Source: Massariosphaeria phaeospora | Lineage: Eukaryota > Ascomycota > Dothideomycetes > Pleosporales | Length of the DNA stretch: 64,000 nt | Direction: 5' to 3' | NCBI GenBank assembly: GCA_011032825.1 | Contig: JAADJZ010000035.1 | Coordinates: 124,001 to 188,000 of the forward strand | Part shown: positions 2,476 through 24,159 of the stretch, in pieces | How the letters are laid out: the number at the start of each line of letters is the position of its first letter | Position numbering within the stretch: the first letter of the stretch is position 1 | Program-made: the position numbers and the translations under genes | The notes under the pieces: model-generated | Database searches by the model: none | What the model was told of the DNA's origin: nothing | Seen by the model: the letters and a program-made list of their open reading frames with translations, nothing else

Positions 2476-2845
2476 GGCACGGAGCGATGCGAGGCGATGC
2501 GATGCGCGAGATATTTGAGAGTGAGGGGGATGAAGAAGACGAGGAAGAGGAGGAGGCGTGTATAAGATGTGTAGGATACTGGACGGGACTGAACTGGGCT
2601 GGACTTGAGTTTGCTGCATTACTGCATGGCGTTGGTTTGGGCTGGATTGGGGATCGAGACGGACGCGGGACACACTGCATGGCGCGCGACATGTGCTAAG
2701 GGCTTGTGTTGCTAGAAGAAGCACCATCTCCACTCGGGCACGATTGGGCGGTGGGGGCGGGGTTCTGGTGAAGGGTATGGGATAATGAAGACTACTTTGA
2801 AATGTACCATCAACTCCACACCTACCCCATCCTTCTACCCCCCCA

Positions 2846-4821: not shown

Positions 4822-5845
4822 TCTTCAGTGCAGGGCTACTCGTGTGGTAGGGTGAGACGCTCTGCAATTGCAGACTGCAGTGTTATTGTTAACAGAGGGG
4901 TGCATGGCCAGGAGTGTGGTCAATATGGAAGTGGGCGACGCTGGCGAAGCGGAGGGATAGCGGAGCTGCGACACGGTGGCTCAGCCTGTACAATGGGCGT
5001 TGTGATTGGCTGCTCAGAGAATAGCTACAGTATGTACGAGGTATCGTGGCGCAAGCTGGTTTCAAATGTAGGAGGCATGGCTAAAGACAGCAACTTACTA
5101 TTTCGGAGCCAAGAGCCCGTAGAGCGCTTAGGCGATGCAGTCGGTGGTTATTTGCCGTCGGCGGCGAACACAGCAGCGGACGTATCTGGGAGAGCAGAGG
5201 TTGAGGTTGATATACGAGTAGAGTTGAGCGGCCTCGGTCCGCTGTCGTCAACGAAGGTTCTACCTTACAAGTAGTGGGCTGGCCGCCGCCTGTCGCACTC
5301 GTCGTCAGCGCAGACTATTACCTAGTTATTCACACTCGCCCGCGCGCTACGCCTCTTTGGGCTGACGTCGCTGGAGTTGGGTAGAAGCGCATGGTTTCTT
5401 GTCGGTACGCTAGACCACGGTAAATCTTCTCCAGCTTCCTCGGCCCATTGTTGCGAGCTGCGAGCTGCGAGCTGCGAACTGCGCCCCTCGCCGTGTTTCC
5501 GCCGCCGCAGTCACGACATCGTCACATTCAGGTGCCAGGCTTCGGGCATGCATGCGCTCCACAACGCGCGCATCCCACACCCGCTGCTGCCTCGACTCGC
5601 CAGTCGCCCGACGGCTTCCGGCTGCCGGCTGCCGGCCACGATTCGACCGCCCACCACTCTGCGACAGCCAGACGCGGCGCCCCTGCTGCCACCGACACAC
5701 CACCCGGCAGCGTTTCAGGTCGCCCAGCACCACGATTCGGCCCCTCCCAAGCCTGCACCAAATAACCACGACCTGCTCCGTGGCCCGCCGCGCCAGCGAC
5801 TGACCCCGACGACCCTCTCCCGCACCGCAATCCCCGATATTCGCC
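4822..5845. other. Intergenic region between divergent genes
   Basis: About 1 kb separating the hydrolase (minus) from the Zn2Cys6 factor (plus). No supported coding region. The part from 5450 to 5845 is CT/GC-rich, with an ACTG/AGCTG-type short repeat near 5452-5482, and looks like a long 5' leader for the downstream regulator. Confidence 0.4.
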
Positions 5846-8800
5846 ATGAACACCTCCCCCAACGGCGGCTTCTACCCCTCGGGCGCCGCGCTGATCAACC
5901 AGCCCCCGCGCATGTTTGGCAACCTCGACGCCAATGGCTCGCCCATCCCGCCAGCGCTGCCGGGCAACATGTTCGGCCAGGACGACATGGACGACGGCAT
6001 GGACCAGGGCGATCCCAAGAGACGGCGCATTGCGCGGGTACACCTCTCGAGCCACCAACAATGGACAGTGCCACCATGCTGACCGCATCCAGGCGTGCGA
6101 CATGTGTCGCAAAAAGAAGATCAAGTGCGATGGCAAGATGCCCTCGTGCACCCACTGCCTGAACTACAAGACCGAGTGCATCTTCACCCAGGTCGAGAAG
6201 AAGCGACAGCCGCCGAAGGGGTAGGCTGCGGTCCAAACGCCCATTGCTCGCGCTCACGGCTGACACGTACGCAGCGCAAAATACATCGAGGGCCTCGAGA
6301 ACCGCCTGGCCCGCATGGAGTCGCTGATGCGCCTGTCCGGCGTGCTCCCCGACGACGACGACGGCAGCACCGACCTCGCGACGCTGGAGAAGCGGTTGGC
6401 GGACAGAGCGGGCCAGGCCGGAACGCCCGGCAACCGCGCTTCAGAGGACAGAGGGGCACCGACAACAGCAACCACCAACACCCAGACCGCCCCCAGCACG
6501 GGCACCTCTGTCCAGCCCGCGCTGCCGAGCCCCCGCAGCGCAACGTCCTCGCCCGAACCGCCCGCGCGCTCTGCCGAAGACAAGGAGGAGGATGCGCTGG
6601 CCGAGATGATGTGCTCGCTAGTGACGAACAACTGCGGCGAGACGCGATATATCGGTAAGTCTGCCTAGGCTGTGACGGAATGTGTATTGACTGTGTCAGG
6701 ATCCTCTTCCGGCTTTTCCATCTTCTCCCCCAAAGGCATCCAGTGGGTCAATGAGAAGACCGGGGACGCCTCTTTCCAGGAGATGATCTCCACCGCCGCC
6801 ATCGAAGACAACAAGTGGATCCAGTGGCGGCCCGACGTCTTCCAGGATGTTTTCAAGCGCCGCGTGTACCGCCAGCTTCCCACAAAACACGAGGCGCTGT
6901 CCCTGCTGAAGGACTACTTTGAAAACTTTAATTGCATGTACCCGCTCTTCCACGAGCCAACCTTCATGCATCTAGTGGACAAGCACTACTCCAAAGACCC
7001 GTATGAGGGCTCAGGATGGTGGGCTAGCTTGAACGTTGCCCTAGCTTTTGCACACCGCCTGCGCGTCATGAGCAACCTCGTGCCGCAAGAGGAGGACGAG
7101 AAGGCGTGGCAGTACCTCAAGAACGCCATGTCTGTCCAGATCGAGCTTACAATGCGCAACACCGACCTACTCAGCGTCCAGGCACTCCTGGGAATCGTGC
7201 GTCGCATGCTCTGCTTCATAAACCTGGTTGGCTAACCATCCGTAGAGTCTCTTCCTGCTGGGTACCCCCAACCCCCAACCGACCTACTTCTTCGTGGCGG
7301 CCGCCATTCGTCTTTCTCACAGTATCGGGCTGCACAAAAAGGGCGCCGGCTTCAACCTGAACGCATCCGAAGTCGAGCAGCGAAAGCGGGTTTTTTGGAT
7401 TGCGTATATGCTCGACAGAGAGTGCGTATCAGCGACCCCTCTGCATGCGCATGCTGACCGTGTATAGCATATCACTTCGCTCCGGTCGGCCACCTGTGCA
7501 GGACGACGATGATATGAACGTCGAGCTTCCGAGCAATAACCCGCCAGACAACATCGGCAACATTCCGCTTGCGGATGGAAAGGGAAAGATGAACATATTC
7601 CGCCTGATGTGCACATTCTCAATTATCCAGAGCAAAGTGTACAAGCAATTATACTCGGTCAAAGCATCCAAGCAAACCGATGGCGAGCTTCTCAATGCCA
7701 TCGGCGAACTAGACGGGGAGCTTGAAGCGTGGAAAGACAGTATCCCACTGGACTTCCGGCCAGAGCACGACATCAAAGCGTCACATACCCCGCTCATCCT
7801 CCACGTTACGGTTCTGCATCTAGGCTACTACAACTGCCTCACTACAATCCACCGGATGAGCGTCCATCATGGCTACTGGACGAGTCGATTGTCGAACTTC
7901 GCCATCCAGGGTCTCAATGCCCGACCCCTGAATCCCAGAGTGTTCATGTCTGCCCAGCTTTGCGTGCAGGCTGCACGGGCCTCGATCCATCTGCTCAAAT
8001 ACATTCCGAAAGGCGACCCGTCTTGCGTATGGCTGGTCATATATTTCCCAGTTACCGCGCTTGTTACTTTGTTTGCCAACATCCTGCAAAACCCACAAGA
8101 TACCCGATCACGGTCCGACCTCAAGCTTATGAAGCTTGTCGTCAACTTCTTGAGCATGCTGAGCGAGGACGCTGGCAACGGCAGCGTGAAACGTATGCTG
8201 AGTGTCTGCGCCGAGTTCGAGCGCATAGCCACCATTGTCGTGGACAAGGCGGACCGAGAGCACTCGTCACGGAGAAAGAGGAAGCAGGGCGACAGCGAGC
8301 AGGACGCTGAGATCGAAGCCACCGCGAACGAGATCCTCAACCCCCACCGCCACCCGACATCGCCGCCACAAAGCGTGAACGCCGGCACCCCTAATCCCCC
8401 ATCCGACCAGATGATTTTCAATCCTGACTTCCAGGGCTTCAATGAGGTGAGATTTGTGACATTGTGGTTTAGACAAACACTAACTTGGCCAGCCCTTCCC
8501 CTTCTCGCCCAACTTCACACACGCCTCGCTCCAAAACACAAACATGCCGCAACAATACGGCTCGCCGTCCATCACCGCGCAGATGCTGCAGCAGCAACAC
8601 AGCCTGCCCATCACCACGGGCGCCGACGTACAGAGCGGTATCAACGGCGTCAACGCCATGGCCGGCATGGGCACCTTCGACCAGACGTTCAACAACGTGC
8701 CCCAGGACCTGTGGCGCATGCCCATGACGCTGGAGTGGGACTGGTCGGATATGACGGGCGTGCCGGGCTACGAAGACGGCATCAGCATGAACGGCGTGCT

Positions 8801-8870
8801 GCCGGACTTTTCGCAGGAGAATCATGGCACGAGTGGGCTGAATATGAACTCGATGAATGGCGGCCGGTAG
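5846..8870 (+). CDS. Zn(II)2Cys6 fungal transcription factor
   Basis: Seven exons: 5846-6037, 6093-6220, 6275-6654, 6700-7196, 7246-7421, 7468-8446 and 8493-8870, giving 909 residues with every junction in frame. The binuclear zinc cluster is at 66-93 with spacing C-X2-C-X6-C-X6-C-X2-C-X6-C ([11 protein letters not shown]...). A basic linker and a short coiled coil ([17 protein letters not shown]) for dimerisation follow. The fungal-specific middle homology region covers roughly 240-600, including [26 protein letters not shown] and [19 protein letters not shown]. The C-terminus is Gln/Asn/Met-rich and acidic, probably the activation region. It is nuclear by family. The target genes are not evident: no neighbouring metabolic cluster is present. 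A paralogous-type regulator lies at 20.1-22.0 kb but the two are not close in sequence. Confidence 0.9.
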
Positions 8871-9384
8871 GCGGGCTGGTTGGCTCGAGGCTCGGAATGC
8901 CCGGCTCACGCACCCGCTCTTGGAGGCCGATTGGCGCTCGGTAGCAATTGATTGCTCGACGTTCCCGGCGGGGTTCTTCTGCGGCGTTGGCACTCGGCGT
9001 CTCTTGTCGGCCCGGCCCCAACTCTAATCTCTACTCTGGCATCACTTAATCTTGAATGTGTATTCTGATCTGATATGATCTGATCTGATCTAGCCTGAAG
9101 AGGAGAGGAGCAGCAGCAAGGAAGTGGAGTCGCGGATTGTGTCGCGGTGTATGTCGTACCGCCAGGCTGGACCTGGACCCAGACCCTTGACTTGGACGTA
9201 GGAGGAGAAGCATAGTGTTGTAGTGAAGTGTATGGATGGTGTCTATGACGATGATGACGATGATGACGGCCACGGGGCATCCATGATGAGATGCATGATG
9301 AGATGCTGAGAGAGAGCGGGGGGGTTAAGAATATATTTTACGATGATATGATTGATTTGCGAAGGAGGGGGCGGATTTAATCTA

Positions 9385-9409
9385 GTTGTTGTTGTTGTTG
9401 TTGTTGTTG
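9385..9409. repeat. (TTG)n microsatellite
   Basis: About eight uninterrupted TTG/GTT triplets, directly before the 16-bp minisatellite. Confidence 0.9.
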
Positions 9410-9413
9410 ATTA

Positions 9414-9509
9414 GTGGTGATGGTGATTCGTGGTGATGGTGATTCGTGGTGATGGTGATTCGTGGTGATGGTGATTCGTGGTGATGGTGATTCGTGGTGA
9501 TGGTGATGG
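9414..9509. repeat. 16-bp minisatellite, about six copies
   Basis: Perfect or near-perfect head-to-tail copies of gtggtgatggtgattc, read directly from the sequence. It is non-coding and lies at the G/T-rich left edge of the array. Confidence 0.9.
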
Positions 9510-10448
9510 TGGTGTGCATGTGTGTTTTATGTGTGGTAGGTGGAATTACATTCCCATACTCGTCATCATTGATCCCTTTTTTTTCTTATCCTGTCCATCA
9601 TCGTCATTATCGACGTCTTCAACCTCATCGATAGTTGGCTTTGGCTTTTGTCACATTCGTGCTACGGACCCAGCGCGCGAGCCTCTCCGCAGTCCCAACA
9701 CATCGTACGCCCTTCGTTGATTTTATCTTTATCGAACCGGACGGACAGACAGACACACACTCCAACGACCGACCGACCGACTCTCATAGACACATCTTCT
9801 ATTGTGTTTTTGTTTTAGTTTTGGTTTTAGTTGGGCGCGGTGGGCGGAGTAGAGTGTGGGATCCTTGCGGAGGATAGTTAACTTGAGTTAAGTTGTTATG
9901 GAAGTTATACATATGAGTATATTCCGGTTATGTTTTATTGAGGGGGTTTTCGGAACGCGAAACGCGAAACACATAGATCGCGATGTGGCGGGCTTTTTAG
10001 CGTCTTTTCTCACATGTCACATGGGCTTTGCGCTTGGAGGGTTTAGAGGCGTGGTGGTGGTTGGCTGGATAGCTGGCGGGCTGGAGGGGGGATGAACGCA
10101 CACATATGGGTATTGCGACGCGTTTTTGTGGGTGTGTCGTGAGCGTGTGGATGAGTGGGTGAGCGGGTGGGTTCCAGGCGAGGAAGGAAAGGAACCGTCA
10201 TGTTTTTAAGCACAGTGGTATTTTGGTAGGACGGGACGAAGGGGCGAAGGACATTAGTGTTCTCGCCGAGCCATTTAGTGTTCGGCTACGCTACGCTGGA
10301 GGCGGGGTTGGGGTCGGGGTCGGGGTCGGCGCATGTATTTCGGGTGTGGTTTGTTGTGAAGGGACGAGCGGGGAGAAAGACATGCCGACGAGACGTGAAA
10401 GATTTTGATTGGGTTTGGAAGGACGCTTTACGGAGTTCGGCGCATGTC

Positions 10449-10496
10449 TTATATAGTTGCTGTCTTTACCAACACGACGAGGAAGAAAGAGAACAT
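10449..10496 (-). CDS. Mini-ORF, 15 residues, hydrophobic (array unit)
   Basis: Encodes MFSFFLVVLVKTATI. The TAA stop lies inside a TATATAAG sequence at 10449-10455. That box is followed, about 67 nt further along the minus strand, by another ATG at 10383 whose product starts MSFSPLVPSQQ and ends in a Thr-Pro repeat. Translation is unproven. Confidence 0.25.
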   Translation of the reverse strand: MFSFFLVVLVKTATI

Positions 10497-11064
10497 GTAT
10501 CCCTTGTCACATAGCTTTATTTCCGGAAAGAGCAGGTTCGGTAATCAGCGCAGGAAGCGCAGAACGACATTGAGGACTTCTGCGGGGAATTCTAGAACGC
10601 GGAGAGTCGGTGTGGCGTGTAGTGTAGAGCTTTGGTTTTTGGGACGAGGGGAAACGTCATATCAAGCGGGCTGAGATGTTTTGTTTGAGGGGTAGTGGTC
10701 GGGACGCGCTCAGGACATTTGTCTGTCTTCGAGGTTTTTTGTTTTGCTGGGATTTTGAAGATTAGGCAGGTAGGCGAGAACGCGGACATAGAGCGTTGTT
10801 GTTATGATTTTTAGACCGCATGGGAGTTGGTGTGTAAGGTTTTGGTTTTTGGGACGAGGGGAAAAGTCATAACAAACCGACTGAGAGGTTTTGTTTCATA
10901 GGGTGGATGGTTGGGAAGAGATTAGGACATAGGTCTGCCATTTAGGGTTTTTGTTGTGTTGGGATTTTGAGGATTAGACTGGGCGGCGGGAAGGACGTAG
11001 ATCGTTTTTGTCGTAATTCTTAGACTGCCAGGAAGTTGGTGTAGGGGTTTAGAGGACGAGGGGG

Positions 11065-11133
11065 TCATTTTAGCGTGCGGAACGGCTTTCTTTTGAGGCT
11101 TAGGTTGTTGATTACTGTCTTGCTCCGCTCCAT
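11065..11133 (-). CDS. Mini-ORF, 22 residues, MERSKT type (array unit)
   Basis: Begins MERSKTVINNLSLKRK. Sister units at 11341 (MKRSKTDYNQPP), 11544 (MKWSKTATNNLRLERK) and 11756 (MNQSKIVASY) keep the same start and basic pattern. The repeated protein-level similarity on this strand is why it is listed. Function is unknown. Confidence 0.25.
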   Translation of the reverse strand: MERSKTVINNLSLKRKPFRTLK

Positions 11134-11874
11134 GAATGTAGCTTGCCTTGTTTTTGCTTTTAGAGGATTATACTAGGCGGTTGGGCGCAGAGGAAGCACG
11201 AGACGACATGCCACGCTTGCTTGGGAGTTTTCAAACAATCATGAGCTGGTTTTCAGGGCTTTGGCGGTCATTTGACGACCAGGAACGGCTTTTGTTTTAA
11301 GGTGTGGGTGGTTGATTGTAATCGGTCTTGCTTCGCTTCATGTCCAGCACCGCCGGACATTTTCTTGGGGGGATTGTTATAGTAGGCGATTGGGCAGAGA
11401 GAGCGGGAGACAACATAAAACGCAGTCTCAAGTGTTTTTAAACAGTCATGAGCTGGTTTTCAGTTCTTTGCCGGTCATTCAACGAGGAGGTACGATCTTC
11501 CGTTCAAGGCGTAGGTTGTTGGTTGCGGTCTTGCTCCACTTCATGGAAGCGGAGGTTTTGCTTTTTCTATAGGGGGATTGTTATACTAGGCGGTTGGGTG
11601 CAGGAAGCGGGAGACAACATGCAGGGTTATCTCGAATGCTTTTAAACTGCGGGAGTTGGTGTGTAGCGTTTTAGAAGACGCAGAGGAACTCATCCATGTA
11701 CCCAGCTTTCGTTTTTCGATGGGCGTATAGCTAGCAACAATCTTGCTCTGGTTCATTGGCAGCCCCGATCCGCGGTTTCTTTGGGAGGATCAGACTAAGT
11801 GGGAGACGACATGGTGCGCAATCCGAAATGCTTTTAAACCGCGGGGTGTAGGGCTTTGGAGGACGAGGGGAAAG

Positions 11875-11940
11875 TCATATAAATAACATGACTTGGTTTT
11901 CGAGAGACTTATAGTTGCCAGCGAGTTTGTTTCGCTCCAT
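11875..11940 (-). CDS. Mini-ORF, 21 residues, MERNKL type (array unit)
   Basis: Begins MERNKLAGNYKSLENQVM and ends in a short hydrophobic tail. It links the MERSKT units to the left with the MERVGDRAAN units to the right. Confidence 0.25.
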   Translation of the reverse strand: MERNKLAGNYKSLENQVMLFI

Positions 11941-12718
11941 GAGCTCATCGTTCTAGTCTTTTTTTACGGGGGCGGCTTTGGATTGTGGTAGCTAGGGGGC
12001 GGGCCGGCAAGCCATAAGTTAAGGTGACAAGACCTTCATCACGGATTTCCGAGTCTATGTGCGGCGGCTAGCAGCGTCGACGGTTCCATGCCTTCGAAAT
12101 AGCAGCGTTTTCGGAGATGTGAAGTCTTGTTCGACGAGCTTTCATATTAGTGATATGAATATCGATTTGAAGTGCAGGCAGTGTGCGTTGGTTTTATGTA
12201 TCGGTCGGGGGAGAAGAGAAAACATGCGTTGATATCCAAGTGGTTTTGAGTTTAGGGGAAGTGATTGGCGGCGTCGTCGCTTCCATGCTAACGAGTTATC
12301 GGCGTTTTGAATGATTCGGATAGCTAAGTGAACCCACAGAGCAAGAGGAGGACATGCTGGAACATCAATTTGGATTCAAAGTATGCTGAACCTGTAGCGT
12401 ATTTTAGCGTTCATCGAAGGGCAGACATGCTTACGGCCAGTCGAAGTTTAGTATTGAAAGACTAAGTTGACGAAATCTTCGCATTCATGGAACCTCTGTG
12501 AGACTGTTCTTAAAGGACCTAGCATGCTGGTCGGGAGCGTCTCTGAGACATCGCCATGTAATAGTGAACGTTTTTCCGAGCGAAGGACATGGGTTCCAGC
12601 AGGGTGTTATTTTGGATTGAGGTGATGGTTGGAACTTGGCGGCGCATCTCCTACTCCCTTCATGTCGATGATGTCTGGCATTATTTAGAGCGGAGGAATA
12701 CATTCCTTGTAAGCTACA

Positions 12719-12847
12719 TTACTTTGAAGTGTAGTGAAGTTGTCGCGTTTGTTCGGCGTTCAGCGAAAGAAAAACCATGAGTTCCAACACGGGCTTATTT
12801 TGGTTTAAGGGGGGGTAGTTGGCAGTGCGATCTCCCACTCTCTCCAT
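12719..12847 (-). CDS. Mini-ORF, 42 residues, MERVGDR type (array unit)
   Basis: Begins MERVGDRTANYPPLNQNK, followed by LELMVFLSLNAEQTR. The next unit (13030) keeps PLNQN and LELMVF in the same order, so similarity runs across the whole ORF and not only at the start. Function is unknown. Confidence 0.3.
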   Translation of the reverse strand: MERVGDRTANYPPLNQNKPVLELMVFLSLNAEQTRQLHYTSK

Positions 12848-12943
12848 GTGAACCTGCTCAAGATTTATTTAGAGCGGAGGAATACATTCCTTCTAAGCCA
12901 CGTTGTTTTAAAGTGCAGTAAAGTTCTAGCGTTTTTCCGGCGT

Positions 12944-13030
12944 TCAGCGAAAGAAAACCATGAGTTCCAGAAAGAGCCGATTTTGGTTCAGGGGGAGATG
13001 GTTGGTAGCGCGGTTTCTGACTATCTCCAT
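12944..13030 (-). CDS. Mini-ORF, 28 residues, MEIVRNR type (array unit)
   Basis: Begins MEIVRNRATNHLPLNQNR and ends LELMVFFR-stop. It closely matches the 12847 unit. Confidence 0.3.
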   Translation of the reverse strand: MEIVRNRATNHLPLNQNRLFLELMVFFR

Positions 13031-13047
13031 GTGAACCTCGGCTTGAT

Positions 13048-13197
13048 TTAGAGCGGAGAAATAAATTCCATATCTGCGACATAATCCCAGAATGATGGGT
13101 TTTTCCGGCGTTCGACGAAAGAAAAACATGGATTCCAAGAAGGGCGGATTTCGTTTAAGGTTGGTTGGTTGGCAGCGCAATCTCCGACTCTGTCCAT
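13048..13197 (-). CDS. Mini-ORF, 49 residues, MDRVGDC type (array unit)
   Basis: Begins MDRVGDCAANQPTLNEIRPS. The first ten residues align with MCAGDRVVAN of the right block (17867), tying the two blocks into one family. Confidence 0.3.
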   Translation of the reverse strand: MDRVGDCAANQPTLNEIRPSWNPCFSFVERRKNPSFWDYVADMEFISPL

Positions 13198-13397
13198 GTG
13201 AAGATGTCTGGCGTTATTTAGAGTGGAGAAAGATGATTCTGGAATGTAGTGAATTTGTAGCGTTTTTACGGCGTTCGGAGAAAGTAAGTCATGGGTTCCC
13301 AACATGGTCCAATTTCGACTAGAGAGGTGATAGTATAGCGCGGTCTCCAACTTTCTCCATATAGGGGCGTTAGCGAAATTTAGAACAGATGAATCCA

Positions 13398-13550
13398 TTA
13401 CATATCCTGTACATTGGTTCGAAGTGCTCTCAAGTCACAACGTTCTTCAATGTTTTCGGCGTTCGGCGAGAGAGCAACATGAAAGACCACTCTGGAATAT
13501 TTGGTATTGAGGGGGTGGTGGTTGGCGGCGCCGTCTCCAAGATTCTCCAT
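13398..13550 (-). CDS. Mini-ORF, 50 residues, MENLGDG type (array unit)
   Basis: Begins MENLGDGAANHHPLNTKY and keeps the PLN and SPNAEN segments of its neighbours. The unit to its right (ATG 13745, MERFGARGPHH) reads through in frame into this one, giving a fused 115-residue frame at 13398-13745. Confidence 0.3.
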   Translation of the reverse strand: MENLGDGAANHHPLNTKYSRVVFHVALSPNAENIEERCDLRALRTNVQDM

Positions 13551-14514
13551 GCCATCTCTGCTGCCACGATTTAAAGCAGAGAGAGAAGAAGGGAAGATAT
13601 TTACTATTGCCAATGTCGATTTAGAGTGTCGTGGACTGAGTTTTGTGCTGCCCGACAAAGAAGAGACATAAATATCGGTGGAATAATGTTTGGTATCAAC
13701 GGGGAATAATTGGTGGTGCGGTCCACGAGCTCCGAATCTTTCCATTTCCTAGTAGTAGAAGTATTTCAGATTCCCGGTTCCGCGAAGGACATAAATTGCT
13801 TCCCTAAAAGGTTTTGTACTAGGTAGTCCGCTTGGCAGGAGGGTGGTTTTCATGAAGAGTTCGTCAAACGTATTTAGATGGATGGCGAGCTTGCCGGGAG
13901 CGGGAGAAGAGAGACAGGCCATGCCAGTGTTGACTCGAACTCTTTTAGTAGATCGTCAGGGTTTCCAGGGGAAGGACATGAAATACAGCATTGTGACATT
14001 TGGGTTTACAGGGCTGGCGGCGCAGTGTCTCCATGCGTAGGTCGTAGAATTATCTTGTAGCATTGAACTGTCGGGTGCGGAGGAAAAAAGACAGACCATA
14101 TTTCAGTCGAGACTTCTTCTTTTGTGATCCTTTGGGGCTTTTCAGGAAACCAAAAGACATCAGATTCAGCGGTCCAGTGTTTCAAGGGTTGTGGTTAATG
14201 ACTCGGTCTCTCCATCAGATTTTTGACTATCCTAAATTGGAGGTATGGAGTGTTCGGCGCGGAGGAACATTGCCGGAGTTGATAGAAACATTCAAATTTT
14301 CGATATCTCATGTTTGTTTTAGGAGAGAAGAGAGAACATGAGTGTAGAAATCCCATTTTAGCGGGCGGAGCGCGGACTTCCATGGCAAACACTTCGACCA
14401 TCTTATAGGAGTGAACTGTTGGGAGCGGAGGAAGACAGCATGCTACACTAGCAAGATCTGTTTCTCGTCCTGTTTTCGGGGGAAGAGAAAGCATAATCAC
14501 TACGAGAGAAAAGT

Positions 14515-15021
14515 TTAGATTTCCTGAGTGGCGTGATCTTTCCCACGATATTTTGGAGACCGGTTTGGACATTTGGCATGCCGGGAGCGGATGAGAAATG
14601 CGTTCCTGAGAAGTCTCTCTACAGAGAAAACACAACGCAGGCAGGCAACTCCCATAGTAAAGACTTCGGTAGTCTTTGAATGTTGAGACAGTATTTTTGA
14701 TATATGCTGTATGGTATAGTGGACGATGCTGACAAGACTACTCTTATATATTGCTGTCCTTGGCTTAGGTCGTAGTCGCGTGCATGCTCCTCTAATTGGT
14801 ACAATCGACATGTTCAGTGTTTGACGCAGTTTTTTCCGAAGAGATATCGACAAGAGCATTAGAAAACGACGCAACGGATTTTTCGAACTTTTGGAAACTC
14901 TTTCCGTCAGGGCCGTCTCTATATGTTGAAGCAACCGGGTTTTTACAGCATTGTAAACTCCTAATTGGATCTGAACAACATGCACGGATCCACAGGAGCA
15001 GTTGTAAGAGACAGGTGCCAA
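14515..15021 (-). CDS. Longest open frame in the array, 168 residues
   Basis: An uninterrupted minus frame starting MAPVSYNCSCGS at 15021. It contains two internal unit-type ATGs: 14808 (MSIVPIRG) and 14655 (MGVACLRCVFSVER). The latter has a TTATATA (TATATAA on minus) at 14744-14750, 89 nt upstream, exactly the spacing seen in the right block. The frame is probably fused repeat units and not a classical gene, but it is long for random sequence. Confidence 0.25.
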   Translation of the reverse strand: MAPVSYNCSCGSVHVVQIQLGVYNAVKTRLLQHIETALTERVSKSSKNPLRRFLMLLSISLRKKLRQTLNMSIVPIRGACTRLRPKPRTAIYKSSLVSIVHYTIQHISKILSQHSKTTEVFTMGVACLRCVFSVERLLRNAFLIRSRHAKCPNRSPKYRGKDHATQEI

Positions 15022-16459
15022 GTTTATAGAAGGCTAAGCAGCCTCTCAGTCTGATATCGAGTTTTGGAGTATGATGTTTCGTCGCGGGAAACACATGTAA
15101 CAGAAGTCTCGAGGTTTAGATATCCGAGTTCCAAATCGGCGCATTTGTTGTATATCGTTCTTCCAGCTGATTCGATAGGTCGTATGGTGTACTCCCATTA
15201 CGCCGAGACATGGAAAAATGGCCGCCAGGTTTTTATTGTCTGTTCAGATCCCCCCACGGATTGCGCTCCAGAATAGTAGTATTTAATCTCTCCATGAATT
15301 GCGGATACACTGAATTTTGTACAAGATCCAATCCAGCACATGACCGGTCTGGACTCCTAGTCCTATTCACACGCATGGTTTTCTCCATTATCCTTTTACT
15401 TTTGCCCAAAACATTTGAGCCGGAGAGCGATCGATTCGGCTTGTACGAGGTAAGGATTGTAGTAGAGGAGTCGGGATTAACAGGCCATTCGCACCATACC
15501 TCCACATGATTCTTTGTTTGGTTTTGATGCGGAGGATGTGAAAGGGCTGATTACCACGAGGATTTGGAGCTCTGCCGTCTTCGACATGGCCCAAATTCCA
15601 GGAATTTTCGATTCTTTTCTGGAGATGTTCTGAAACCAACTTTTCCACCTCGAGCCGACCCATTTCTTTGTCGCGCATATTGTTATAGCTGATCCACGAG
15701 AACTCTGGTAACATGTATAAAAGATCAAAGGTTTTCGCGAACTTAGGCGTCGAGCCTCATTTGTTTCCAGCGTGCGCGAGTGGTTCGTCCATTTATCTGA
15801 GAGAGCAAAAACTCGTCAGTTCCGGGCGAGCGAAAACCATGAAGTTGTTTTAGTCCATTTGCGTAGTTCTTTCAGGGGAATACTGGGTCGAGGAAATATC
15901 TGAGTCGTGATCCGTCGTTCTGTTTCCGTTGTTAAACCAAGAAGCGCATACACAGAATTTCTTAAGTATGCTTGGAAGAAGCCGTTACAGAAAGTAGGGA
16001 CCGGCCGCCAACCATCGTCATGTAGAGGATCTCTTGAAGCTTGTAGTTTTGGATAGAGAAGAATGTGGTCCGGGCTGCTGTTCAAGAGCTGGGGTGATCT
16101 CGTTCGATCGCGAAATACCGCGCGGTATTTTTGGGAGGTATAAGTGAAGAAACGAGGGAGACAAGAAGCAAAGATTTTATAGGAGTCATCTTGACGAACC
16201 ATGGTTCTGATAACGCGCTCAACGAAACAACCCACCGTGCCACCTAATCAGCTCGCGTTGAAACAAATGACGCTTGTCGCGATGGCTCGCACAACTAAAG
16301 CCACATGAACCTGAACTTTTCAACCAAACATTTTAATTATGTCTTCCTTGATTTGATGTGGTTTTTCGTGTTATCGCGATTCGGTGTCCTCGTTCTTCAA
16401 AGACTGGCTGTTTTCAGAGGAACTCGACTCCCATCTCGTGATCCATAGCTATATCGATT
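14751..16459 (-). repeat. Tandem array, central irregular part
   Basis: Unit boundaries are hard to see here. Recognisable traces on minus are a 20-residue ORF at 15233-15295 starting MERLNTTILERNP and an in-frame upstream MEKTMRVNRTRS at 15388. No conventional gene is visible. Confidence 0.4.
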
Positions 16460-17472
16460 TCACGATGCCGCGACGCTGAAATGTCGTAAGGAGACATGAG
16501 AAGGTTGTCGAGCAGGCGTCATGGATAGCAAGCCTGGGTTGAGCATGGTTTGTAATGCGACGTTCGGAGTGGACGGAAATAAATAAGAAGAGCCGGTGGT
16601 CGATTCCCGAGGTCCCCTTCCCTCATACATCGCCCTTTCCACACGACCGGTTTTAACTCTCACACAAACCCTCGTCGAACATGCCACGTAGGCATTGGAA
16701 CTCTTAGTTGCTATTCCTTCTCTAGCGCACATCTTCTCTGCTCGTCCAGGTTTTCGCCGAAATATCCTGCTTTCCAACGCACGCAAGAAACATGCGTCGT
16801 AGTTGAGCGGAACTTCAGTCACTGCTCGTTTTCCAGCGCACATCGATTGATAACTCATTGATTTTCAGACTCCGGATTATAGATGTATGTGTAGAAATGA
16901 AACAACATGGAGTAGAGGGGCGGGCTTATATACCCTCCAACCGGTCTACGGAGTACCCGTAATCACGCAAAATGATGACGGCAATCAACATGGGCGCCAC
17001 CATCGGAGTCGTACACGTTTTAAGGATATTTGTCACCTTCAAGCCATCGCGGCCGCCGCTCGCTCTTCACCGCACATAGGAATCTCGCGAATCGGATTTT
17101 ATTTACTACAGCCTCCGCGGCAATGTTATGGAGAGGAAGGGAAGAAGAGTTACAGGACGAGGGACTTATATACCCCAAGTCCTCAATTGAGTGCCTTGTC
17201 CATCGAAAAAATTACCAACTGACGAGGATGATAACGTTGATGATGATGGAGAACACTACCACCAAAGCCGCACGTCTCGCATGTCAACGATATTCATGAC
17301 CTTTGAAGACACTACGTAGTACGGCGGCCGCTCGTTCTCCACCGCACACGCATACGCCTTTAGGTAATTTTAGTTACCACAGTCGAAAATGCTGTAGTAT
17401 TAAGGTAAAGAAGAAGAAACGCAATAGGGACGCAAAAGGGGGGGCTTATATACCCCAGCATTCTACGAAATA

Positions 17473-17598
17473 CTACCAGATGGGCATGATGATGTTGGTC
17501 AGGATGCTGAATATTAAAGCCGCACGCACATCACGCATGCGCAGAACACCGTACAAATTTCCGCGGAAGCAGGAACCGCTTTTTCTCCGGCGGACCAT
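17473..17598 (-). CDS. Mini-ORF, 41 residues, basic head and hydrophobic tail
   Basis: Starts MVRRRKSGSCFRG and ends in a hydrophobic stretch, RAALIFSILTNIIMPIW. The box TTTATAAG at 17690 is 92 nt upstream of the ATG. The neighbouring unit near 17230-17290 carries the same tail in coding form (RAALVVVFSIIINV...) but shifted out of frame from its ATG by a small deletion. This looks like decay of a once-coding copy. Confidence 0.35.
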   Translation of the reverse strand: MVRRRKSGSCFRGNLYGVLRMRDVRAALIFSILTNIIMPIW

Positions 17599-17702
17599 TG
17601 ATTGTATGCCGTTGTGTTTTAGACACTACAGTCTTCACGGCAGTGTTATATCAAGGCAAGAAAAGAAAAACAAGAGAGTAAAGAGGAGCTTATAAACCCC
17701 CC

Positions 17703-17867
17703 TTACCACCTATTACGGTAGCATACGAGAAAGAGCAGGTTTTTCATTGCTAACAAATGGTGATGGTGGTGATAGCGATGAGCGCAACAGTGAAGAGATG
17801 CCGCATATTTCACCAATAATGCAGGAGTCCAGAATACATTAGCAACCACTCGATCTCCAGCGCACAT
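17703..17867 (-). CDS. Mini-ORF, 54 residues, MCAGDR type
   Basis: Starts MCAGDRVVANVFWTPALL and includes a five-His run. The TATATAAG box at 17958-17964 lies 91 nt upstream. The context before the ATG is AAA. A second hydrophobic mini-ORF overlaps it in another frame (17750-17806). Confidence 0.35.
   Translation of the reverse strand: MCAGDRVVANVFWTPALLVKYAASLHCCAHRYHHHHHLLAMKNLLFLVCYRNRW
17750..17806 (-). CDS. Mini-ORF, 18 residues, hydrophobic
   Basis: Encodes MRHLFTVALIAITTITIC, long enough for a single short membrane helix. It sits at the same place in the unit as the MSVILVV and MRDVRAAL peptides. Confidence 0.3.
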   Translation of the reverse strand: MRHLFTVALIAITTITIC

Positions 17868-18055
17868 TTTCTGGACTCTAGTTCTTTTTAGTCACTACAG
17901 CCTCTGCTGCAGTGTTAGTAAAGAAGAAAGGACAGCAAGAGAGCAAAATAAGGGGGCTTATATACCTTCTTTCTGCTCCCGGAACCGTAGCACACGTAGA
18001 AGAGCAGGATTAGTATCACCTGTAGAGAACCACGATGATGGTAGTGATTAACACA

Positions 18056-18136
18056 TCACCAAACAGAAACCACGCATTTCAGCAACGTCATAAATCTCTT
18101 AGACATTATGGCGACCGCTCGTTCACCAGCGCACAT
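18056..18136 (-). CDS. Mini-ORF, 26 residues, MCAGER type
   Basis: Starts MCAGERAVAIMSKRFMTL. It is preceded, 30-50 nt upstream, by the perfect palindrome at 18165-18182 and by a degraded box at about 18225 (89 nt). Confidence 0.35.
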   Translation of the reverse strand: MCAGERAVAIMSKRFMTLLKCVVSVW

Positions 18137-18164
18137 GGAAGAATCGGTACCCGATTTTTTCTAT

Positions 18165-18182
18165 CTACAGCTGCAGCTGTAG
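18165..18182. other. 18-nt perfect palindrome in array leader
   Basis: CTACAGCTGCAGCTGTAG. Weaker versions stand at the same place in other units, for example 17893-17914 and the CACTAC/GTAGTG pair at 23142-23171. It may be an RNA hairpin in the leader or a dimeric protein-binding site. Confidence 0.6.
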
Positions 18183-18295
18183 TCGTAAAGTAAAGAAGAA
18201 AGGAATGAAGGAGAAGAGAGCGACTTACGTACCCTCCTACCCTCTACTCCGTCGAGCACACGGGTCTTCTGCGGACGAGATGCATAGAAATATTA

Positions 18296-18355
18296 TCAAT
18301 AGAAGCTGACGATGATGATGACAGTTGTGGAAGCGACTACCAAAATTACAGACAT
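18296..18355 (-). CDS. Mini-ORF, 19 residues, hydrophobic
   Basis: Encodes MSVILVVASTTVIIIVSFY. The ATGTCTG start is shared with the units at 22322 (MSATLVFASVAS) and 22591 (MSAASLATPTVF). No TATA box is visible at the usual distance here. It is the last unit before the SDR gene. Confidence 0.3.
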   Translation of the reverse strand: MSVILVVASTTVIIIVSFY

Positions 18356-18676
18356 GTAAAATTACCAGCTGTTTTTTCAGGATGCGACAGTACACACACA
18401 AAGCTGCAAACCTGAATAAGAACGCAAACATGCTTCTTGCGGTAGAGTTTGAGGTCGAATCCGCGTAGTTCATGGGCCCAGAGATCCAGAATCCACAGAA
18501 CGTGAAATAAACCAAGAGGAGATCAGAAGTCCATGTGGCGCAAATCCCCATTGAAATTGACTAGCAGTTCAAAATAGTTCTTAACTTCCCGTTCCAACGT
18601 GGCCAAACTGTTTGATGATCCAACTCGAGCTCTGCAGCGCAATCATCGCGTATATCAAGAATCCTCATCTTCTAAA

Positions 18677-19685
18677 CTACACCGGCACACCGTGCAGTCC
18701 AACCGTCAGGACCAACGAGCTCTTGATTTCCTCAGCACGCTCCTTGAGATCCTCGACATCCCAGTTGACCCACACGAACTTTCCCTTGAGGAACTCCGCT
18801 TGCTGAGAAGCAAGCCAGATGAGGAAGTGAGCGGGGAGGTCGACTATCGATGACAGTTAGCTGATGCGGTAGAGACAAGACAGTTGAAGAAGACCCTTAG
18901 AAATGCATAGAGGTACGTGAAACCGCGCAACGAATGGACATTGACTTACTGTCATCGACGCCTATATCTTCAAGCTCCGTAGAGGCATTCATCTCGGTGT
19001 TGACGATACCGGGATGCACGTTAACGACATGCAGATTAGGGTTCTCGGCCTGCAGATAATCAAACATCTTGACGTTTGCCATCTTGCTCCCCGCGTAGGC
19101 CCAGCAATGAGGCACCAGTCTAACATGTGCAATGGCTGAGGCGATGTTGAAGACCTTGGCCTCGGGGGCGAGCAAGGGCAGCATCGCCTGGACAGCGTTG
19201 AAGGCGCCTCCCATGTTGAGGTCCAGACCGTTCCGGAATTCCTCGTAATCGTAGCCTGCGACAACACCGCTGGTTTGGAGGATGCCGGCGTTGTGGATGA
19301 AGATGTCAATGTGAGCATCGCCGGCCTTCTTGACAGCATTCGCAAATGCAACATCGACGGCAGCACGTTGGCTCAGATCGACGGCCTCGAAGACGACGGT
19401 GGTTGTCCCGTTGGGATTTGCCTTGCGGATCTCCTCAGCAGCCGCCTGCAGTTTGTCGATCCGGCGGCCGAAGATGGCGATGACTTTAGCTCCGGCCTGT
19501 GCGAAGGCAATGGCAGTGGCTTTACCGATGCCAGTGCCACCACCCGTAATGAACACGACACGGTCGGTGGCTCGCAGCTCAGGGAGGAGGGGCGATATCT
19601 GGGGATATGGCTTGCTGTGCCATGTCTTGGTGAAGGATTTGTGGTATTTGTCTCCTGGATAAAGCTCGGCGTTGCTGCCCATCAT
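18677..19685 (-). CDS. Short-chain dehydrogenase/reductase (SDR)
   Basis: Two exons on minus, 19685-18950 and 18843-18677, giving 300 residues. Classical SDR signatures are complete: cofactor motif TGGGTGIG at 47-54, NAG at 132-134, catalytic Ser about 183 (NIAS) and YAGSK with Tyr 197 and Lys 201. The second exon supplies the usual C-terminus (LPAHFLIWLAS... FVWVNWDVEDLKERA). It is an NAD(P)-dependent oxidoreductase of unknown substrate, of a type common in fungal secondary-metabolism or detoxification loci. No signal or membrane segment is seen. The gene stands inside the tandem array and has a TATATAAG box 130 nt upstream of its ATG. A Zn2Cys6 factor lies directly upstream on the same strand and may regulate it (inference). 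Confidence 0.9.
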
Positions 19686-19814
19686 TTCGAGACTGCAAAT
19701 GAATGTTGTTTAGAAAGAAAAAGTCTGTGGTCAGGAGTCGAAAATTGGTCAAGGCGAGTCGTTGTACAGCTTGATCAACAACAAAATCTTTGTTGGAGGT
19801 CGGCTGCAAGCAAC

Positions 19815-19821
19815 TTATATA
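19815..19821 (-). promoter_or_regulatory. TATA box of the SDR gene
   Basis: TATATAA on minus, followed by G. It is the same octamer as in the array boxes and lies 130 nt upstream of the SDR start. The hairpin element of the array is not evident here. Confidence 0.6.
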
Positions 19822-20137
19822 CACCTCCTGAACAGATTAGGCCTCCCAAGCGGGACCTAAGTTCCGCGGAAGACGTACTTAGAAATGGTAATTGACCGCA
19901 GAAATAGTCAGTCAGCTCGTAATTGTTGTGCTCCGAAGCCATTCCGCGGAACTCCGATTAGTCAGTCGCAGGTTCCGCATAGCTTTATTATTGCCAATCC
20001 TGTTTTCGAGTCAATTCTCAGACTTGTACAAGTGAATCAAAGTTTTCGTCCCAATGCCTTGGATAATCGAACCTATGACTGGTCGTACTTCGGAGGCTTT
20101 CCCAACCCCATCTCCCGCAAAACACACGAAGAACGAT

Positions 20138-22008
20138 CTACGTAAACGGATCGAGACTGCTGGCCATCAAGCTCGCTTCAGCGCGTCTCTGCTGAGCATA
20201 CCGGTGCATCTCAGTGCAGTTTTTGCGAAAAGAGCGAATTATTTCACTTCGGGTCTCTTCCGCGACTTGATCAAGCATTTTCAAACCTGTATCCACCAGT
20301 CCGTTGTCTAAGGACAATTGATCGTGTTGCGGTCTTTGCATGCTATTGAAAGTCAACAGCAGCATGGCTGTCATGTGAGCACAACCCGTCGTCCTATTAC
20401 TGTCTTAGCGTCACCGAGCGGAGATGGGTATCGATCGTACAAGCGAGTCACAAAGTACTAATATCGATACTTACCAGAAGTTCCATGTATTCTGAGGGGG
20501 TAACGCCCCAAGCAAAACCGTTAGTTGTCGCGCTTCATCCACCACTGCTTCCCATCGAGGTGGCAGTGCCGGCAGAATGCCTTCGATCGCGTACTTGCGT
20601 ATACCTTCCACCCAGTAGGTATTCCAGGCATTTGCCTGATATAGGAGAGTTTTGCACGCCAGGCTGGTAGAATGCAACACTGCAAGCAATTGAAGTACGA
20701 AGGGAGATACCGTGTCCGGGGCGAGGAAGACACTGAATTCAAACGGGATGGATGCCTTCCACGTCTCGAGGGCGCAAGCTAGGCTCTCCAGCGCACGGGA
20801 TCGCTCCTCAATGCTGCGTTTTTGGGAGCGCGTGGAGTACAGATAGTCGTACACGCCGCCTCCAATGACAGCCAGCTGGATGCGAGTCACAAAGTAGTTC
20901 ATCTCCACGGCTCCATCTGCGGTGACGATAATACCTGGGCCGACGCTAGTGTCACCAATGCACCCATCGTCGACTTGGTATGGAAAGACCTCGGGTGAAG
21001 GTAGTTCGAGGTCGACATCGTCGTCAAGCTGGACCGACGGCTGTTTTGAGCGCATGCTTAGGTCTTTGTCGAGGATATATGCCATCCAGAAGACGCACGC
21101 GCGCTGTCTCGCATCGACAGCGTCCAGATGTGCTGAGGCGGCGCGGTCATGCAGGCGGATCTTGTGGGCGAGACGGATTGTTGTAGCAATCAAGATTAGT
21201 GAAGGGGTGAGATCTGACGAGGCTTGAAGTAACAACACCATCCCCACCAGAACCTGAATGTTGAGCAGCTGAGTATCTCCCAGCACGATGGAGGAGAGCA
21301 CTGACTCCGCTTCGTTGAGATACTCGACCGAGAGGTTAGGATTGCCACTGCTCACCAGATCGTGGCGGTGTGCGAGAGCCAGAACTACATTGATCGCGGC
21401 CCATGCCACTGGATCGCGTCGTGGATATGGAACGTTGTAAAAGTTGTGAACCAGACGGAGAAGAGTACCATCATGAAACAGTGGTAGTGCCGCGTTGAAA
21501 GTCTTGAGAAAGATCTTGACAATAGGCAGGACATGTTCTAGAGGAGGAAGAGCCATGAATACATTATGCCTTGGACTTTGGACTGTATCCCCGCCGTCGC
21601 TTGCCGCTAAAGTTGTCTGCGATGCGGTATCGAAGGGGATTTCTTCTTGCTGCTGCACTTGGATGGTCTGGTGCTGAGTCCCGTTGTTTTGGTGACCGAC
21701 TTTTACAGTCCCACTAAGCTGCTCAACCAACTCTTCCAGGTTCCGCAATCGATCCTGGGTATCACTGGTGGTGGCATCGGTCTTTGCGCAGTTTTGTCGC
21801 TTCTTCGGTCTGGATTTTCGACTGGGTGCCGCATAGGTGCACTCCGTCACATACGTGATGCACTGTGAGCAACGAGGTCTCGCTCTGTCGCATTTGAATT
21901 TTCGCCGATAACAGAGATCACAGGACTTTGCATTTCTAGAGTCTTAGCCAAGCAGTGGTGACCAAGCGGCATCCATACCTTCCTGGGGGTCATCGAACCA
22001 CTCGTCAT
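20138..22008 (-). CDS. Zn(II)2Cys6 fungal transcription factor
   Basis: Three exons on minus: 22008-21979, 21925-20475 and 20393-20138, giving 578 residues. The zinc cluster at 12-39 has the spacing C-X2-C-X6-C-X6-C-X2-C-X6-C (CDLCYRRKFKC...). The tiny first exon encodes MTSGSMTPRK and joins directly to SCDLC. The acceptor after GCAAAG was chosen over the upstream TAG because only it keeps the frame. The fungal-specific regulatory domain follows (LFHDG, VLALAHR, IRLAHKIRLHDR, FWMAYILDKDLSMR) and a helical C-terminus. It is nuclear by family. It is the likely regulator of the adjacent SDR. Its start is 314 bp from the mini-ORF ATG at 22322, so a transcript begun at the array box at 22431 could run into this gene. 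Confidence 0.88.
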
Positions 22009-22516
22009 GACTCCAAGAATGTTGACTGAGTTGGAAGAGAAGTAAAACGGCCTTGGGCTCGCGACAACTGTTTCTCAAAGTATTTGGTTGCTAGAGCTTC
22101 CGCGGAAGCACGTCGGAACCGGTCGCTGACAAATGAGCTAACTGAAACTAGTAACGCTTCGCCATACCCTGCCTGGGTAGGTAACCACTCCCCGAACACT
22201 CTACCAAACACGTCATCAATCTTTCTTTCCGCAAACACAGATACGTGAATACCATCATCAACAGATGTCGATGATGATGAGAACAATGACGCCACGGAGG
22301 CGAACACTAGAGTCGCAGACATGTCAAAGATATTGGGCCACTTTTAGAGACACTACACTGCAACACAGCAGTGGCAGTAGAGTAAAGAAGAAGAAAGCGA
22401 GAGGATAAGAGAAAGAGGGCTTATATACTCACCTACCCTTCTCTCTACCCGTCCAACCGCTCAGCACACCAACAAAGCGCTCCGAGCGCTTTCTTTCTAT
22501 GAACACGCGAACATCA

Positions 22517-22591
22517 TCACCAACAGACATAGATGAGGATGACCATCACAACGATGAATACGGTAGGCGTCGCCAGCGAGGCCGCAGACAT
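22517..22591 (-). CDS. Mini-ORF, 24 residues, hydrophobic
   Basis: Starts MSAASLATPTVFIVVMVIL and ends with an aromatic/Cys tail before TGA. It is a plausible single membrane helix. The box at 22682-22688 is 91 nt upstream and the context before the ATG is AAC. Confidence 0.35.
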   Translation of the reverse strand: MSAASLATPTVFIVVMVILIYVCW

Positions 22592-22733
22592 GTTGAAGCT
22601 CGAAAGCTAATTTTAGACTACAACTCGTGCTACAGATAGGAAGTGCCGAAAGGAAACTGAGAAAGTGGGCGACAAGGGGGCTTATATACCCCCCGGGAAC
22701 CCAAAGAAACAATGGCAATCACCATCACCACTA

Positions 22734-22823
22734 TTACCAAAGCTGCCGCCTCCCCAAGCAAGCAGGCCACGTCCCCGAACTCCTTCTTTTATTCCAGTCG
22801 ATCTGCTCGATCTCCCCGCACAT
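22734..22823 (-). CDS. Mini-ORF, 29 residues, MCGEIEQ type
   Basis: Starts MCGEIEQIDWNKRRSSG. The box at 22922-22928 is 99 nt upstream. The unit at 23422 starts alike (MWAEIEQLVGS). Confidence 0.3.
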   Translation of the reverse strand: MCGEIEQIDWNKRRSSGTWPACLGRRQLW

Positions 22824-22921
22824 CGCGTGAACTGCTACAACTTTTTAGAGTTTGCAGCTTGTGCTGTAGATATGTAGTAAAGTAAAGAAAGGAAAGTAAC
22901 AGAATAGACAAGAAGAGGGGC

Positions 22922-22990
22922 TTATATACCCACCTCGCATTTACCCCGAATACACCAAGCAAGGATGATAGTCACTATTACTATTCCCAT
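22922..22990 (-). CDS. Mini-ORF, 22 residues, hydrophobic, stop inside next TATA box
   Basis: Starts MGIVIVTIILAWCIRGK. Its TAA stop is part of the TATATAAG box of the next unit, as at 10449. Confidence 0.25.
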   Translation of the reverse strand: MGIVIVTIILAWCIRGKCEVGI

Positions 22991-23259
22991 TCCCCTCTGC
23001 CTCCACCACTCCTCTCTGCCTCCACAGCGTCCCGCCCCTCGTGCAAACACACAACATCCCCAAACCCCATCCCCCTTTCTAGTCATCCACCCACTACTCG
23101 GTCTTCGCGCACATGGTAGCCTAGGCCGACCGTTTTTTATACACTACACCCCAACCGCTGCTGTGGTAGTGAAGTAAAGGAAAGAAGAAAAGAAGAAAGG
23201 GAGTGAAAAGAGAGGCTTGTATACCCGCCCACTCACCCGCCCACCGAGAACCCTAGCAT

Positions 23260-23316
23260 TCAACCGCACACCCTCCCAGAAACACAGCAAGCAACAATAA
23301 TAGTCACCATCACCAT
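23260..23316 (-). CDS. Mini-ORF, 18 residues, hydrophobic/Cys-rich
   Basis: Encodes MVMVTIIVACCVSGRVCG, at the same unit position as the other hydrophobic peptides (TIIVA versus TIILA in the neighbour at 22990). Confidence 0.25.
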   Translation of the reverse strand: MVMVTIIVACCVSGRVCG

Positions 23317-23530
23317 CACTACTACTACTCCCCTCCCACCCCACCCACCCAACGCCTCTACAAACACACAACATCCCCCTTTCTAGTCAACTACCTACCA
23401 ACTGCTCAATCTCCGCCCACATGGACGGGCACGTCTATACATTTTAGACACCCCACCACAGCCGCTACTGTACCAGTAAAGAAAAGAAGAAAGCAAGAGA
23501 GAAGCGCATTAGAAGAGGGGGCTTATATAC

Positions 23531-24159
23531 CCCAATCCACCCCCACCGGCAAACAAGCAGGCACCCAGCAAAAGACACAATCATCACATCATCACCCGCA
23601 CATGACCAACCCACACCCCCACACCAGCAAACTCCAAAAGAACCAAAATGATTTTAATACGACCTCTCCTTCCGCAAAAGCCATGAAATAATCGAGGCTT
23701 TAACTAAGCTAAAGCGTCGCAGCAGCAGCAGTAGCAGGAAGTAGGCATCCGGCATTCGAAACGCAACCCTCAAGAAGCCAGCCAAGTCAAACCAAGCCAA
23801 ACCAATAATCCTTTTTGTGAGATTCCCCATTTTTCACGCAAAACCCACCTTTCCCACTCCAATTCGGCGTTTGCTTTACTCGCACCAAAAAAAAAAAACG
23901 CCTGTCAAGACTCCAGAAAAAGAGAATCCGAAAGTCAAGTGATAAAAGGAAAGAAAAGAAAGAAAGAAGATCAAAAATTTCAGACGGGGTATATGCGTGC
24001 GTATCCAAGCCAAGCCGAGCCAAAACCGCTGGCCCGACACCCATCAATCAACCGCGCTGAGTGCTTTCCTCGTTTACCAACCACGCGAATCGTATCGAAT
24101 CGTACTGTATTGCGTCGATGCGCGACGATCGACGGCGACGGCGACGATCGACCAACCGA
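23531..24159. other. Gene-free flank after the array
   Basis: C/A-rich, with short purine tracts (poly-A near 23887, AAAGAAAGAAAG near 23950). No gene is visible. It is the 3' side of SPP1. Confidence 0.4.

Follow-up and report, generated by a model that had tools for sequence, protein, structure and literature searches.

We analysed a 64-kb stretch of DNA (hereafter the window; C29:124001-188000) from the 42.08-Mb, 51-contig assembly of the fungus Massariosphaeria phaeospora (Pleosporales), in which short promoter-like units, each with a TATA box, a pyrimidine tract, a CTAAAA box and an ATG, stand in tandem on the minus strand. Along that strand the order is a PHD-finger gene, cluster B, the gene for a Zn2Cys6 transcription factor, a dehydrogenase frame, cluster A and array C, the last a run of cassettes in which an AAA precedes an ATG by 17–20 nt (AAA-N17..20-ATG). 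An earlier note had claimed eleven minus-strand units, and all of them are present (16.83-18.24 and 22.31-23.53 kb); they are listed here by the box and ATG positions of that note. Model R1, whose matches give the unit ranges below, was built from these same units.

22314..23534, minus strand: cluster B, five promoter units in tandem (R1 matches)
23409..23534, minus strand: promoter unit 23523/23422, from the TATA box to just past the ATG
23101..23229, minus strand: promoter unit 23217/23114, box TATACAAG
22809..22935, minus strand: promoter unit 22922/22823
22583..22694, minus strand: promoter unit 22682/22591
22314..22434, minus strand: promoter unit 22431/22322, with TATATAAG at 22427-22420
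16829..18238, minus strand: cluster A, six promoter units in tandem (R1 matches)
18122..18238, minus strand: promoter unit 18225/18136, box TACGTAAG
17853..17969, minus strand: promoter unit 17958/17867
17584..17703, minus strand: promoter unit 17690/17598, box TTTATAAG
17335..17457, minus strand: promoter unit 17446/17353, without AAA-N17..20-ATG at the first position
17064..17177, minus strand: promoter unit 17166/17077
16829..16938, minus strand: promoter unit 16926/16843, the last before array C
10000..16650, minus strand: array C, downstream of cluster A, with 68 AAA-N17..20-ATG cassettes but no promoter units

One claimed box position needed correction: in the 22431 unit TATATAAG occupies 22427-22420, and the TATA-to-ATG distance there is therefore 105 nt rather than 109. 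At 17353 the ATG is displaced 4 nt upstream relative to the ATGTGCG of the alignment, where that unit has GTG. A profile made from the eleven units, and thus partly circular, returned the same eleven in the window (E values of 4e-50 to 1e-25), followed by a weak piece at 18353-18286 (E = 0.006). The TATA motif alone, with up to three mismatches, was within chance (13 matches against 8.6 expected; 8 of 100 shuffles reached 13). Non-circular support came from the pair AAA-N18..20-ATG, for which the minus strand of clusters A and B gives a count of 29, where dinucleotide shuffles give 2.3 (z = 14.4), and the plus strand one of 6, where they give 2.6 (z = 2.0). An AAA stands 17–20 nt ahead of an ATG in ten of the eleven units (the exception is 17446). 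Cluster B (22.2-23.6 kb) has six cassettes on the minus strand and none on the plus strand; for cluster A the densities are 5.7 and 3.4 per kb, the latter (16650-18350) being the highest opposite-strand density among 13 stretches compared. The inverted repeat claimed for each unit is real in many of them, although its folding strength is modest: the 45 nt upstream of CTAAAA gave a mean folding z of -1.17 for the nine usable units of the window and of -0.76 for 93 units.

The unit anatomy was resolved with a pooled set of 130 units from 12 loci (duplicates removed; the TATA filter excludes window unit 18225 with its box TACGTAAG), 99 of which could be anchored on CTAAAA with at most one mismatch. 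The letters common to the anchored units are GGTATATAAGCCCC, a pyrimidine tract, CTAAAA, and an ATG that is mostly followed by G or T. The fixed TATA-to-ATG distance that had been proposed holds for its distal part, as CTAAAA and ATG lie 18.56 nt apart (standard deviation 1.01; 99 units, allowed range 15–23), whereas the TATA-to-CTAAAA part is looser (73.3 nt, standard deviation 9.7). Where CTAAAA is exact (n = 72), the ATG follows at 18, 19 or 20 nt in 21, 29 and 5 units, respectively (55 of 72), and after [AT]CTAAAA it stands at +18/+19 in 49 of 71; ATG is the commonest triplet 17–20 nt after CTAAAA (95 of the 130 units). The spacer positions carry no more than 0.09 bits each, save those next to the boxes (0.20 for the first and last letters, 0.11 for the one before last). 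The rigid element is thus CTAAAA-N18/19-ATG with free letters between, that is, the strict spacing of two short boxes around a free spacer that is expected of an initiator–downstream promoter element (Inr-DPE) core promoter. Upstream, TGATG or CATCA occurs at -80 to -20 of the TATA box in 76 of 130 units; the figures for +10 to +70 and +100 to +160 are 4 of 130 and 30 of 129, respectively. The full order of a unit is therefore GGTATATAAGCCCC, pyrimidine tract, CTAAAA, 18–19 free nucleotides and ATG, often preceded by a GATGAT/ATCATC box.

Beyond the promoter units the cassette alone continues. Array C contains 10.2 cassettes per kb on the minus strand and 0.75 on the plus strand, against 0.33–1.0 elsewhere outside the arrays, and its AAA-N18..20-ATG pairs number 107 against 10.8 in dinucleotide shuffles (z = 25.3; 3 on the other strand); neither the eleven-unit profile nor R1 found a promoter unit in it. 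Arrays elsewhere in the genome gave z values of 19.6 (L048), 21.4 (L049), 20.4 (L050), 13.5 (L084) and 10.0 (L085), and the opposite strands of arrays gave -1.3 to 2.3. As a control, 24.2-64 kb of the window showed no excess of the pair on either strand (17 against 23.5 and 15 against 22.8; z = -1.3 and -1.4). In an unbiased scan of triplet pairs with gaps of 6–59 nt, AAA-19-ATG came out top both in array C (52 against 6.4) and in a separate ranking of L048, L049 and L050 taken together (100 against 15.7), whereas the control region was headed by other pairs from A- and CA-rich repeats. Past the first ATG of the units, 100 pairs with an ATG 17–20 nt after AAAA were counted (182 AAAA in all), where about 18 were expected. 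Cassettes downstream of promoters share the promoter direction. Array C is not the only promoter-less run, since the cassettes of L085 (contig C34) also form one, both of its strands being free of TATA-like sites. A period of 37–41 nt is seen in eight neighbouring pairs of L084. Two further observations concern the left end of the window: the plus strand is strongly GC-skewed, by 0.21 to 0.44 per kb, at 9000–14000, over the left part of array C, and positions 1–9000 show a mild plus-strand excess of AAA-N18..20-ATG (11 against 5.0; z = 2.5).

The units are widespread in the genome. The strict pattern GGTATATAAGCCCCN{30,60}CTAAAA matched 16 places on ten contigs, one of them in the window, and its reversed control none; because of overlaps, the 15 loci outside the window amount to 12 distinct places. 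Of these 15 loci, 14 have four or more TATA-like sites accompanied by pyrimidine tracts, almost all of them on a single strand, and L009 has one. A looser pattern, TATATAAGN{40,70}CTAAAAN{10,35}ATG, gave 171 matches (some of them one TATA box with two ATG ends) against 2 in the control; six of the 30 looser-pattern loci that we examined (L018, L019, L032, L033, L041 and L042) had only 0–2 TATA-like sites. This pattern captured 9 of 27 units among the matches listed for L048 and 2 of 11 in the window, so that a genome-wide total of roughly 500 promoter units would be no more than an extrapolation. CTAAAAN{17,18}CATGG alone matched 120 times against 20 for its control. The longer stretches hold 27 (L048), 18 (L049) and 20 (L050) units, with none on the opposite strand of L049 and L050 (L048 was scanned on one strand). 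When a pair of window units and a portion of array C were used as BLAST queries against the genome, each returned only itself, which indicates that the arrays have more of their architecture than of their sequence in common. A gap in the L049 array (2290-2826, contig C13) holds an opposite-strand open frame that resembles a piece of a hAT transposase, although it had no Pfam match; it is perhaps an insertion into the array. Outside this genome, the pattern TATATAAGCCCCN{32,60}CTAAAAN{14,24}ATG gave six single matches in viral contigs and 26 in bacterial and archaeal genomes, where a uniform-letter estimate predicts about 37 by chance. R1 applied to 11 of these 32 loci gave five weak matches (best E = 0.005, in L055), a gap scan of L055 alone had no clear peak at 17–19, and TATA-like counts across all 32 were 0–6 per strand, the most being in AT-rich L069.

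Divergence along the unit is non-uniform, in agreement with the suggestion of the earlier note that promoter and leader are under constraint. Between close pairs the boxes are 0.86–0.93 identical, the spacer 0.55 and the segment at -80 to -60 of the TATA box 0.56, unlike the uniform divergence of a neutral satellite. In a gapped alignment of 79 pairs the spacer was the lowest of 16 segments (0.555), compared with 0.677 just upstream of it, 0.736 just after the ATG and 0.64 further on; it also fell below two stretches upstream of the TATA box (0.617 and 0.667; p = 0.007 and 1e-8, values that are optimistic because pairs share units). In 17 pairs picked for similar flanks (identities of 0.75 and 0.73), the spacers were 0.27 to 0.32 identical without gaps, and the stretch upstream of the TATA box was equally low (0.32). 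The spacer is free to vary and perhaps fast. Active spacer replacement was considered but is not supported, given the equal divergence of the segment upstream of the TATA box and the partial likeness of neighbouring spacers in array C.

The ATG had been taken to open a mini-ORF (a short open reading frame), a claim that comparison of the copies does not support. Across 64 within-array pairs, each 60% or more identical over 24 nt, codon positions 1, 2 and 3 differed in 158, 159 and 128 of 512 cases each (0.309, 0.311 and 0.250), leaving no overall third-position excess; position -3 has no purine preference (A 0.21, C 0.21, G 0.26, T 0.32; 99 units), and frame lengths scatter from 1 codon to more than 60. 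That each ATG begins a short peptide is the least probable of the explanations considered here, even though ATG is the most frequent triplet at its distance from CTAAAA, frame-0 reading frames are slightly longer (median 21 codons against 15.5 and 17) and two small sets vary most at the third position: the four window pairs (0.19, 0.38 and 0.38 at positions 1, 2 and 3, tied with the second) and the six type-a copies of array C (12 pairs; 0.41, 0.32 and 0.48), the six type-b copies giving 0.43, 0.38 and 0.34. Many window units also have a hydrophobic frame near their end, but this run coincides with the GATGAT/ATCATC box that precedes the following TATA box; a hydrophobic peptide as a unit-end product was rejected, the block having been picked by eye, the test being weak (p = 0.047) and the box explaining it better. 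Alternatively, the cassettes could be polyadenylation or termination modules, with an A-rich hexamer and a cleavage site 18–19 nt on, in which case the promoters would make very short RNAs. The G-rich letters after the ATG of promoter units and the hexamer-to-site distance do resemble those of known poly(A) sites, yet downstream letters in array C are C/T-rich rather than G-rich, the common box is ATG rather than CA, and poly(A) sites need looser spacing than is seen here; we regard this explanation as very unlikely.

A selfish or neutral satellite, in which tandem duplication spreads copies whose boxes are kept by descent or because they promote duplication, with no use to the cell, would account for the degeneracy of the tandem copies and for their greater likeness within arrays than between them. 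That BLAST found no further genomic copy of array C or of the pair of window units also fits, and implies that arrays diverge or arise separately. Across arrays that are otherwise unalike, conservation nevertheless centres on short boxes and the distance between them, which is not what neutral drift gives, and we consider a satellite unlikely. A stronger competitor, possible though still doubtful, is a two-box core promoter read at the DNA level, with CTAAAA as initiator and ATG as downstream element, so that the arrays would be dense start sites, some with TATA boxes and some without. Some 73 nt beyond the TATA box, pyrimidines give way to A at CTAAAA, which looks like a start site; two-point contact requires strict spacing with free letters; and the 22 nt from AAA to ATG make about two helical turns. 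In array C, however, the box is weakly initiator-like, as AAA follows any letter and no pyrimidine-only tract leads to it, and the pair is not in excess in 24.2-64 kb, so ordinary genes there seem not to use it.

Taken together, the patterns in these sequences make it highly probable that promoter units stand in tandem here and at many other genomic sites, that cassettes recur on one strand, after many of these units and also in the TATA-less runs of array C and C34, that boxes and distance are what the arrays share, and that the ATG carries no sign of coding. How they work is a more tentative matter. The combination of strict distance and free letters implies either simultaneous contact at two points or the cutting of a length. 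Reading in RNA is favoured because the cassettes are one-stranded, run in the direction of the promoters and continue for kilobases without TATA boxes, and we lean, with some reserve, towards non-coding arrays transcribed in one direction and carrying a ruler-like cassette that acts at the RNA level, with the DNA-level core promoter close behind. Promoter units would start transcripts that run through the downstream cassettes, a machine measuring about 22 nt from AAA to ATG would read each cassette in the RNA, and the 18–19 free nucleotides would serve as a payload, in the form of a short RNA, or purely as a ruler. A more specific version, which we think rather unlikely, is a guide-like nuclear system in which hundreds of cassettes or more would be cut between the AAA and AUG boxes into RNAs of about 18–22 nt whose sequence is free to change.

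Several observations weigh against the favoured reading in RNA. The plus strand of cluster A carries its 3.4 cassettes per kb, and adjacent spacers in array C are partly alike, from which it follows that spacers are not replaced wholesale. In 93 units the spacer paired no better with its own unit than swapped spacers did (downstream -11.37 against -11.37, upstream -7.26 against -7.36); the pairing of a variable segment with its precursor that marks hairpin-derived (microRNA-like) small RNAs is thus absent. Three spacers compared with the genome at up to two mismatches had no second perfect match, and their two-mismatch places numbered 0, 1 and 2, compared with 1, 0 and 4 for reversed controls. 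The first spacer letter had no 5' U bias (A 109, C 95, T 78, G 62 of 344), although the true RNA 5' end may differ, and spacer 13-mers shared with other fetched DNA were fewer than for a control segment (10 of 344 against 21 of 344).

Known RNA families gave no match. In 9.5-24.2 kb of the window and in L048, L049, L050, L084 and L085, no Rfam 15 family reached its gathering score; sub-threshold hits included mir-885 (22.9 bits of 66, window) and sR5 (21.3 of 40, L085). U6 small nuclear RNA, which has a hairpin, CTAAAA and CATGG in a similar order, was rejected because 24 nt separate CTAAAA from CATGG in U6 and there was no Rfam match; a spliceosomal reading of the other strand was dropped as well, the box there often not being AG as judged by eye.

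The closest parallels to the arrays lie in systems of other kinds. Nematode type-I piRNA (PIWI-interacting RNA; 21U-RNA) loci are described as tiny clustered units with a fixed promoter motif, the Ruby motif, ahead of a sequence-free short RNA (PMC6436959), and the fungal arrays are likewise made up of a great number of tiny, clustered non-coding units, each with a promoter of its own. The arrays differ in organism and motif, in being tandem duplicates, in having the free segment between two boxes and in the lack of a 5' U bias at the spacer start. CRISPR (clustered regularly interspaced short palindromic repeat) arrays are similar in that repeats and spacers alternate behind a leader, the spacers being nearly constant in length and free in their letters, and the 37-41-nt period of L084 adds to the likeness; here, however, the DNA is fungal and nuclear, the repeats are degenerate and the three spacers compared lack a second perfect genomic match. 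The most CRISPR-like layout is at L084 4340-7640 (contig C45), where cassettes often succeed one another at 37–41 nt and two free segments flank a common block, some 20 nt long, of which ATGGCTTGGGGAGACTAAAA is an example. In animal Inr-DPE core promoters box spacing matters and spacer letters do not; the cassettes likewise have two short boxes at a set spacing around a free spacer, but with other boxes and another distance, a strict TATA-like extension (GGTATATAAGCCCC) and continuation without TATA boxes. Box C/D guide RNAs hold guide segments of limited length between conserved boxes; the boxes here are instead AAA and ATG, and no Rfam family reached its gathering score in the stretches searched. 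Tandem repeats with a TATA box are reported for some satellite DNA, from which the arrays differ in that copies from different arrays are outside the boxes about as unalike as random DNA while the box distance is kept.

The arrays thus appear nearest to nematode piRNA loci in concept, to CRISPR in form and to Inr-DPE promoters in spacing logic, none of which clearly fits in every defining feature. In line with the earlier note, which knew of no described fungal family of this kind, none was found in the titles and abstract openings covered, which include few subscription papers. The arrays resemble no system known to us and may represent a new type of small-RNA or promoter array. A rigid two-box signal that recurs on a single strand after TATA promoters demands a machine to measure it, and we know of none that fits so rigid an AAA-to-ATG measurement. 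If the signal acts at the RNA level, the fungus would have arrays of sequence-free short RNAs; if at the DNA level, it would have a strict downstream core-promoter element in dense arrays.

The genes next to the clusters, and two clean tandem repeats elsewhere in the window, are as follows.

18897-19709, minus strand: short-chain dehydrogenase frame, between clusters B and A
20471-22008, minus strand: Zn2Cys6 transcription factor (PF00172, PF04082), directly downstream of cluster B
9408-9507: minisatellite with a 16-bp unit, TGATTCGTGGTGATGG, in 6.2 copies, a clean tandem just left of array C
32805-32890: clean tandem repeat (CACAAAA) x 12.3

Read by eye, the Zn2Cys6 gene has a first exon that runs from 22008 and a short intron.

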